64,000 bases of DNA from Demequina maris (GTDB lineage Bacteria > Actinomycetota > Actinomycetes > Actinomycetales > Demequinaceae), in contig NZ_BBLX01000001.1 of assembly GCF_000971155.1 (NCBI RefSeq), positions 227,879 to 291,878 of the forward strand, written 5' to 3'. The notes beneath the pieces are model-generated. The model searched no databases, was not told where the DNA came from, and was given only the letters and a program-made list of their open reading frames with translations. Numbering within the stretch: position 1 is the first letter of the stretch; every line of letters begins with the position of its first letter. A program made the translations under genes and the position numbers. Of this stretch, positions 55,009-63,082 are shown piece by piece.

Positions 55009-55446
55009 TCAGACGGGCGGGACGAAGTCCGCGGGCACGACGAGCACGGGCACGCGCGCGAACTCGATCACGTGGAGGGTGTGCGAGCCGATGCCCGGCA
55101 GCACGTGGCCCGGCCGCTCCATGCGCCCGAGCACGATCATGCTCGCCCCGCACGCGGCGGCCTCCGCGAGGAGGCGGGACGCTATCCGCCCGTGATGGAG
55201 CACCGCCTCGGTGGCGACTCCCGCCTCCTCGGCGCGCCGGGTCACGTGCGCGAGCGCGGCCTCGCACGCGCGCTCGTGGCCGCGGATGAGGGCCTCCTCG
55301 GCGGCGAGCCCGTGCGCCGCGCCCTCGTGGTCGACGACGGCCACGAGCCGCAGGTTCGCGCCGGTGCGGCGCGCGTGCGCGATCGCGACGTCGGCTGCCG
55401 CGAACGATGCGGCGGAGTCGTTGATCCCGACGAGCACAGTGGTCAC
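55009..55446 (-). CDS. Universal stress protein, UspA family
   Basis: The 145-residue protein has VLVGINDSAASFAAADVAIAHARR and a C-terminal ATP-binding motif G-x2-G-x9-G-(S/T) approximated by LGRMERPGHVLPGIGSHTLHVIEFARVPVLVVP. GTG at 55446 overlaps the ATPase subunit D stop by four bases, so it is the tenth gene of the V-ATPase operon. Placing a stress protein in this operon suggests joint expression under energy limitation; this is inference. Confidence 0.88.
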   Translation of the reverse strand: MTTVLVGINDSAASFAAADVAIAHARRTGANLRLVAVVDHEGAAHGLAAEEALIRGHERACEAALAHVTRRAEEAGVATEAVLHHGRIASRLLAEAAACGASMIVLGRMERPGHVLPGIGSHTLHVIEFARVPVLVVPADFVPPV

Positions 55447-56072
55447 GGCGTCGCCCCTTCACGGGTCCCCCGCTGTCGCGCGGGACGCGCGCCGTCCGCG
55501 GCCCACCGCACGCGCAGGCTCTCCTCCCGCTCGAGCTCCTCGAGCGCGCCCTCGATGCGCTCGAGCTCGGCCTCGAGCGCGGGGATCCACCGGTGCTCGA
55601 TCGCGCGTCGCCGGGTCCGGGTCGCCACCAGCTCCGCGTGCATCGTGACCGCCGCGCGCCGCACCGCCGCATAGGCCACCGCCGCCTCGAGCGCGGCACC
55701 CATCGCACGGGACGCGTACGCGAGCGCCGAGCCGCCGCCGGCCGGTCGCGGCGGGGTGCCGTCGAGGCGCGCCTCGTTCGGGAACTCGATGCCCATGACC
55801 CGGCCGGGCTCCACGGTCACCCGGGGTGGACGAGCCGGCGCGGCCGCGTGCAGCGCGTGCCACCCGTCGAGGGCGGCGGCGCGTCGCGCCCAGCGGTCCG
55901 CCTCATGGGCCGCGTCCTCCCACTCCGCGCGGAGGTCGTCGGCGCGCAGCAGGAGGCGCTCGTGCTCGGCGGCGACGATGCGCTGCTTGCGCTCGAGCAG
56001 CCCGACCCCGTGCCGCGCGACCGCGAGGCGTCGGCGCACCCGTAGCCGGGCTGCCCGTCCGACGTCACCCAT
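55443..56072 (-). CDS. atpD: V/A-type ATPase subunit D (central stalk)
   Basis: The 209-residue, strongly helical protein is rich in Arg and Ala, with N-terminal and C-terminal coiled-coil helices (LLERKQRIVAAEHERLLLRADDL at the start; RRRAIEHRWIPALEAELERIEGALEELERE at the end). This is the layout of the rotor shaft subunit D that turns inside the A3B3 hexamer. It overlaps subunit B by 8 bases. Identification rests on position and helix pattern, since the sequence is divergent. Confidence 0.8.
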   Translation of the reverse strand: MGDVGRAARLRVRRRLAVARHGVGLLERKQRIVAAEHERLLLRADDLRAEWEDAAHEADRWARRAAALDGWHALHAAAPARPPRVTVEPGRVMGIEFPNEARLDGTPPRPAGGGSALAYASRAMGAALEAAVAYAAVRRAAVTMHAELVATRTRRRAIEHRWIPALEAELERIEGALEELEREESLRVRWAADGARPARQRGTREGATP

Positions 56073-61744: not shown

Positions 61745-62654
61745 CGAGCACCTCCGAGCCGGCCCGGCCGGACCCGACCGCGGCGACGGCGGCCTGGACC
61801 CGCCACGCATCCACGTCGAGCAGGGCGATCCCGGCCACGACAACCTCGGACCGCGCGGTGCCGGCGCGCAGCTGCGCGGCCGCCTCGGCCTCGATCAGGG
61901 CATGGTGGCGCGACTCGGCGCGCCACAGGTCGTGCGGCCCGTCGACGCCGTCCAGCACCGTCGCCACCCGTCCGGGCAGCGCCGCCGCGAGCGACCCGAG
62001 GTCGTCAGCACGCTCCCAGCCGCCTCCGAGCAGGGGGCGCAGCCGTCTGCGGAGGACGGCCGCGGGCACGGTCCGGCCGACGGCCACGATGCGGGCGGCG
62101 AGCAGGGCGGCGCCGCGGGCCGCCCACGTGCGGGCCGCCGGAGAGGCACTCGCCCGGCGCTCGAGCGACGCGGCGGCGAGGATGTCCGCGAGCTGCGCCT
62201 CGTCCTCGTCCGGCACCTCGCCCCACGCGCTGCGCGCCAGCAGCGATCGCAGCTCGTCCGGGCCCTCGGCACTGCTCAGGAGCGTCCAGGAGGTCTCCAT
62301 CGCACCGAGGTCGTACGGGCGTTCGCGGGCGCCGCCGCGGAGCTCCCGCATCCGCATGAGGATGTTGTCGCGCTCGAAGTCCGCGGCGGCCGCGCGCATC
62401 AGGCGGGTGCCGCCTGCGGGCGCCCATCCCGCGAGCACGCGCAGCTGCCACAGCAGCGTCTCGCGCGCCGCGCGCTGGAGTCCCTCGGGCGTCGACGGTC
62501 CCACGACCCGGGCACCGTAGCTCCAGGAGCGCATCAGCTCCGCCGCCTCGTCGAGCGTCGGCGCCGCCGCGAGCCGGGCGGCCCCCTGCGGCCCCGCGCG
62601 GCCCGCCGCCAGCGCGCGCACGCGCACCGCGGCGCCGACCCACGCGGCGCTCAC
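61731..62654 (-). CDS. atpC: V/A-type ATPase subunit C (rotor-ring adaptor)
   Basis: The 307-residue helical protein with the MRMRELRGGARERPYDLGAMETSWTLL segment fits the C (d) subunit that couples the central stalk to the K ring. It has three similar helical lobes with no membrane segment. GTG at 62654 overlaps the H gene stop (GTGA). Identification rests on this segment, size and position between H and I. Confidence 0.78.
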   Translation of the reverse strand: MSAAWVGAAVRVRALAAGRAGPQGAARLAAAPTLDEAAELMRSWSYGARVVGPSTPEGLQRAARETLLWQLRVLAGWAPAGGTRLMRAAAADFERDNILMRMRELRGGARERPYDLGAMETSWTLLSSAEGPDELRSLLARSAWGEVPDEDEAQLADILAAASLERRASASPAARTWAARGAALLAARIVAVGRTVPAAVLRRRLRPLLGGGWERADDLGSLAAALPGRVATVLDGVDGPHDLWRAESRHHALIEAEAAAQLRAGTARSEVVVAGIALLDVDAWRVQAAVAAVGSGRAGSEVLDAAA

Positions 62655-63082
62655 GAGGTCCCTCGCAACCCGGCGGCGAGCCGGTTGACCACCGCGTCGG
62701 CCGCCTCGTCGATCCGGGGCGAGCGCGAGGCGAGCAGGGCGTCCGCGCGCGCCTGCGCCTCCTCGAGCAGCCGCGCGTCCGCGGCCTCCGCCGCGTCCCG
62801 CACCGCCGCCGCGGCGACCGCCTCACGGCCCGGCGCCTCGGCGCGCGCCGCGGCGATGACCTCCGCACCCGCGGCACGTGCCCGTGCGACGCGCTCCTCG
62901 GCGCTCGCCTCACCGGATGCGGCGAGCGCGGCCGCGGCGGCGAGGTCCTCGTCGAGCGCGGCGAACACGGGAGCGAGCTCGAGCGCGATCCCCGTGCGTG
63001 CGGCGGCATGCGCGGCAGACTCAGCCGCGCCTCCCGGCGCCGTCGCCGGGCGGAAGCGGTCGAGGATCTCCTGCCAGCGCAT
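62651..63082 (-). CDS. Small coiled-coil subunit of the V/A-type ATPase (G/H-like stalk)
   Basis: The first gene of the operon encodes a 143-residue Ala/Glu/Arg-rich helical protein (LAASGEASAEERVARARAAGAEVIAAARAEA..., ARLLEEAQARADALLASRSP), as expected for the peripheral-stalk G/H subunit that pairs with E. GAGGAAGAGAG precedes the ATG. Upstream (63083-63198), TTGACC and TAGATT occur but are 23 bases apart, so the promoter is not clear. Confidence 0.68.
   Translation of the reverse strand: MRWQEILDRFRPATAPGGAAESAAHAAARTGIALELAPVFAALDEDLAAAAALAASGEASAEERVARARAAGAEVIAAARAEAPGREAVAAAAVRDAAEAADARLLEEAQARADALLASRSPRIDEAADAVVNRLAAGLRGTS

Follow-up and report, generated by a model that had tools for sequence, protein, structure and literature searches.

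Nine genes that lie head to tail on the minus strand of a 64,000-nucleotide stretch of Demequina maris DNA (the window in what follows) raise the question of what kind of rotary ATPase they encode, and which of its features set it apart from the known enzymes. A sequence-only reading of this DNA had seen in them a V/A-type ATPase operon with the order H-C-I-K-F-E-A-B-D followed by usp, in which every junction overlaps (by 4, 14, 4, 4, 4, 13, 4 and 8 bases, and by 4 bases into usp); the order, on the minus strand, and the overlap values were both borne out. The V/A type was also confirmed, since A and B match the family models NF003220 and NF003235, and D, C, I and K match their Pfam models above cut-off. 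We consider it likely, from comparison of sequences, that the product of the operon is a complete rotary ATPase of the V/A type from a compact and mainly actinobacterial clade, which has a reduced stator and would work as an auxiliary H+-coupled pump beside the F-type synthase. The nine V/A-ATPase subunit genes and usp are the following:

62651-63082, minus strand: H, peripheral-stalk subunit (G of Thermus), 143 aa, core from residue 34 (synteny, profile comparison)
62984-63082, minus strand: residues 1-33 of H, conserved N-terminal module, not in the H of long-I loci (alignment of 34 H)
61731-62654, minus strand: C, rotor-socket subunit (AC39/d), 307 aa, GTG start (PF01992, 29.8 bits, barely above the cut-off of 29)
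60434-61744, minus strand: I, compact stator/channel subunit, 436 aa (PF01496, 81.1 bits)
60012-60437, minus strand: K, ring (c) subunit, 141 aa (PF00137, 57.4 bits, residues 78-137)
59770-60015, minus strand: F, central-stalk subunit, 81 aa (PF01990, 20 bits, under the cut-off of 23.5)
59249-59773, minus strand: E, peripheral-stalk subunit, 174 aa (PF01991, 13.6 bits, under the cut-off of 24.2; conserved position)
57501-59261, minus strand: A, catalytic subunit, 586 aa, P-loop GGFGTGKT (NF003220, 642.8 bits, cut-off 470)
56065-57504, minus strand: B, regulatory (non-catalytic) subunit, 479 aa (NF003235, 590.3 bits, cut-off 349)
55443-56072, minus strand: D, central shaft subunit, 209 aa (PF01813, 103.6 bits)
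55009-55446, minus strand: usp, universal stress protein, 145 aa, 4-base overlap with D (PF00582, 64.7 bits)

By Pfam, C, I, K, A, B, D and usp score above cut-off, F and E below it, and H gives no match; the assignments of F, E and H rest on synteny together with profiles grown from relatives. Gene starts, and hence sizes, were set by rule in scripts. The value of 14 bases for the overlap between C and I hinges on where I is taken to start; 16 of 16 loci, the window included, have a start codon that gives exactly this overlap, and in the window the sequence GGAGG lies upstream of it. A mis-called start of I that would hide an upstream arm was rejected, given that gene C lies directly upstream and that the start is kept in these 16 loci. 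The tRNA, promoter and Rfam scans returned no match, and the terminator scan gave one weak site.

For comparison, 98 loci were annotated: the window, 17 others, and 80 named loci picked out by means of a subunit I alignment. This set is biased to the window's kind of I. We call compact the loci whose I is short as in the window, and long-I those whose I has about 626-662 aa and carries a distal lobe. The gene order, which had been taken as unusual, turned out to be usual in the compact clade and common to long-I operons of other phyla, and it was rejected as the anomaly of this locus. After the removal of four duplicates the full order was found in 49 of 64 compact loci, the rest being due to contig ends, mispicked ORFs or a missed subunit. 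Seven of the 30 long-I loci show the full order and ten others H-IKFEABD with a C-sized gap; five such gaps were tested, four from the ten and one from a cut locus, and each time the absent gene was a PF01992 match. The long-I operons of the same order belong to Lachnospiraceae and other Bacillota (Clostridia), Pseudomonadota (Gammaproteobacteria), Chloroflexota, Desulfobacteraceae, Hydrogenedentota and others. Scrambled order strings in some loci come from overlapping ORFs in other frames that were picked as K or F; landmark peptides placed I before K before A in eight of eight scrambled or cut loci checked, and a ninth, L099, is cut before A. The gene order of Thermus differs from that of the compact operon. 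As for usp, it lies 3' of D in all nine Demequina loci, and of the 58 compact loci that have a D gene, 20 show a usp that ends 300-900 bases past it, vs one of 23 long-I loci, a count made with a profile seeded from the window's own usp.

What is unusual lies in the stator: subunit I of the compact clade keeps the proximal lobe and the membrane domain with the channel, and the coiled coil and the distal lobe are missing. The arm that precedes the conserved FGMMFGD motif spans 133-213 residues in 55 compact proteins vs 349-377 in 28 long ones (L067 is counted among the long; five proteins with no clear motif are uncounted, and duplicates and cut genes, such as the contig-end fragment L140, were dropped). 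When the long-I alignment was compared in pieces, the N-terminus of compact I matched the proximal N-terminus at 93.3% and the distal lobe at 0.4%, and its second half matched the second proximal part at 97.3%. Both proximal profiles match 47 of 47 compact I proteins and the distal-lobe profile none of these 47; the latter matches 24 long I proteins by construction, because it was built from those same 24. A whole-profile hhalign comparison placed the short N-terminus on the distal lobe, contrary to the piecewise result; a distal-lobe remnant at the N-terminus of I was rejected in favour of the piecewise assignment to the proximal N-terminus. Arginines R334 and R391, which we take to have a channel role, are invariant in the 47 compact proteins.

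The closest solved relative of compact I is that of the V-type Na+-ATPase of Enterococcus hirae (8wci_P, E 2.7e-32), on which residues 50-418 of the compact protein align with 249-655 and residues 11-53 align weakly with 5-47, and about 200 arm residues are absent. The V/A-ATPase of Thermus thermophilus is built of the same nine kinds of subunit and its I is also matched (5y5x_N, E 8.9e-9); in contrast with it, compact I lacks the distal lobe and the coil, and compact H carries an extra N-terminal module. As described in PMC7367684, a coiled coil connects the two lobes of the Thermus I subunit, an EG stalk is bound by each lobe, and in the isolated Vo both lobes touch subunit d in contacts of autoinhibition. 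This collar of proximal and distal EG-docking lobes linked by a coiled coil is not present in compact I.

Subunits H and F carry matching changes. Residues 34-138 of the window's H align on residues 1-103 of the long-I H with a probability of 95.3% (profile comparison), and the module in front of them is rich in Pro and Gly, with the consensus D.L.RFRP.GAPGAA...GVPADR in the alignment of 34 H. The H of long-I loci, of about 103-117 aa, is as a rule devoid of it. The presence of H was tabulated for 87 of the 98 loci, after dropping four duplicates, six with a cut or odd I and L063, in which no I was seen. Of the 56 compact loci that have an H ORF, 55 carry the module, vs none of 21 long-I loci with H; the compact positives are partly by construction, since 34 of these H proteins served to build the profile. 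Two compact and eight long-I loci of the 87 yielded no H. In L108, the only compact miss, the H frame is broken and the module is encoded in a different frame a short way upstream. The F subunit of the compact clade ends without the C-terminal tail of about 24 residues present in the long-I relatives; its stop codon lies 71-95 codons after K in 59 of 60 compact loci (the other being a mispick) and 103-128 codons after K in 22 of 27 long-I loci (the rest mostly mispicks). The short sizes of I (436 aa) and F (81 aa) had been noted correctly from the sequence alone, and what escaped that reading was that I has lost one lobe cleanly and that H has an additional module.

These changes bear on the number of peripheral stalks. 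According to PMC4355294, F-type enzymes are built with one peripheral stalk, and the V/A and V enzymes with two or three. From the sequences of I and H, a single peripheral stalk per enzyme is a tentative reading for the compact form; the distal lobe would have been lost together with its stalk and its autoinhibition contact, and perhaps the stalk that is left is clamped to the proximal lobe by the H module. The other arrangement, to which we give just as much tentative credit, is that both EG stalks are kept, with the H module as a substitute docking site or with the two stalks sharing the proximal lobe, so that the stator would be rearranged and not reduced. The gain of a conserved module by H in the same clade that lost the lobe of I agrees with two stalks, as does the stalk number of the known V/A and V enzymes (PMC4355294); against it, compact I has lost the one lobe that is known to dock a second stalk in Thermus, and no further stator gene is seen within an operon in which all genes overlap. 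In the main reading, the H module would help to anchor an E-H stalk that stands on the proximal lobe of I. If the stalk orientation described in PMC7367684 holds, the module would lie at the site of the lost lobe; the review PMC6131620 gives the opposite orientation, with the N-terminus of E in contact with the catalytic core.

The compact form, defined by its short I and its H module, has a single origin in a tree of subunit A with 98 rows, where a branch of SH-aLRT 100, with a stem of 0.52, sets the 61 compact rows apart from the rest; the tree comes from a quick search without bootstrap, and the 61 rows include L063, in which I was not seen, and the loci with a cut I. Because of this one origin, the changes in I, H and F are best counted as one set of events. 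The clade is mostly made of Actinomycetota, with a few MAGs inside it labelled Chloroflexi, Dormiibacterota and Eremiobacterota (L102, L105, L087), which are possible cases of mis-binning. Among the Demequina rows, subunit A of L064 (genome G018) groups with Arthrobacter relatives, apart from the other eight, and this position suggests transfer within the actinobacteria.

We also asked how frequent the enzyme is. Above its cut-off, NF003220 matches 9 of 47 genomes of the family, all nine among the 44 of the genus Demequina, 17 of 396 in the order, 15 of 394 in the class, and 72 of 296 in a phylum-wide draw. Most full-length A matches of the phylum draw score 800-929 bits vs 642 for the window, several lower ones being partial and unclassed, and 28 of the 30 best-scoring loci have F immediately ahead of A, nine of the 30 having C ahead of F; these are canonical V/A-ATPases, of the same phylum and the same kind of enzyme as the compact one. 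For the class, loci were also chosen by subunit A alone: 13 of the 15 matching genomes were newly examined and gave one locus of a third type (L200), three cut by contig ends and nine with readable I and H. In all nine the H module is present (41-62 bits) and the distal lobe is unmatched (at most 0.9 bits); seven of them are new, and L204 and L209 come from the genomes of L100 and L110, already in the named set. The idea that this order and these sizes are simply the actinobacterial norm accordingly stands in the class, with nine of nine readable loci compact, and fails in the phylum, where canonical operons dominate the sample; the compact enzyme is a minority of the V/A enzymes in the phylum sample and the main type in the class. 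The third V/A arrangement, with a D-like gene first, occurs in two Actinomycetes, L067 (G077), whose I is long (672 aa), and L200 (G893). In five further contigs (G477 C14, G594 C3, G635 C69, G667 C69 and G686 C57) the A profile is split in two within ORFs of 1068-1151 aa, as would be given by an intein in the catalytic subunit.

In subunit K, two extra helices, judged by eye, come ahead of the c hairpin, which has one Glu. The sequence-only reading had pointed to these helices; they are there, but are not distinctive, as long-I relatives also have them (by eye), and they were discarded as a special trait. They may serve as a signal or an anchor. In the window, and also in L141, L143, L146 and L153, the helix before the hairpin ends by eye in an Ala-rich, A-x-A-like segment, and some long-I K proteins show a single N-terminal helix resembling a signal peptide (by eye). 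Judging by its sequence, the N-terminal part of K may be cleaved.

The residues needed for catalysis and transport are conserved, with the P-loop GGFGTGKT in 61 of 62 compact A subunits (21 of 26 in long-I operons) and the ring Glu in 61 of 63 compact K. The Na+ ligands beside the ring Glu are Gln and Ser/Thr, as stated in PMC2359735. The hairpin of compact K matches 2bl2 of E. hirae but does not keep these ligands: the position of Gln110 is occupied by Val and the residue after the Glu is Gly, each in 61 of 63 compact K. Since the ligands are missing, H+ and not Na+ is predicted as the coupling ion. A Na+ pump for salt or alkali tolerance is brought to mind by the presence of the enzyme in Demequina salsinemoris, by the Na+ V-ATPase of E. 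hirae and by the Na+ V-type ATPase assigned to an uncultured actinobacterium in PMC7325909, but the Val and Gly at the ligand positions make it very improbable. Equally hard to sustain is a decaying operon without function; it would fit the patchy presence in 9 of 44 genomes of the genus, and the divergence of C, E, F and H, and it is opposed by the open frames and conserved overlaps found across genera and by the catalytic and channel residues that are kept; one locus, L108, has its H frame broken.

The search for an F-type operon elsewhere in the genome (2.97 Mb in 22 contigs), suggested by the sequence-only reading, revealed a complete one with the genes for a, b, delta, alpha, gamma, beta and epsilon and a c-subunit match between a and b; the V/A enzyme is then the second rotary ATPase of this bacterium. 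A role as ATP synthase at high proton-motive force or under other conditions is less likely than one as a pump; V/A-ATPases are reversible, and PMC12342949 gives synthesis or hydrolysis as the proposed role of additional V/A enzymes, whereas the complete F-type synthase in the same genome and the patchy presence of the V/A enzyme in the genus speak against it and are not decisive. In the preferred reading, that of an auxiliary H+ pump, A3B3 would hydrolyse ATP, D, F and C would turn the K ring, and H+ would be pumped outward, presumably under acid or energy stress.

No description of the compact form was found in the open-licence literature on actinobacterial V-type ATPases, their gene order or a single stalk; an older account in a subscription journal is possible. 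If the compact enzyme does have a single stalk, this would make it resemble the F-type enzymes, and its stator would be, to our knowledge, the smallest in the V/A family. The natural loss of the second docking lobe offers a direct test case for the number of stalks that a V/A motor needs, and it asks if the autoinhibition of free Vo, which in Thermus involves both lobes and subunit d as described in PMC7367684, is dispensable. More broadly, these results draw attention to a second rotary ATPase that occurs here and there among common actinobacteria.
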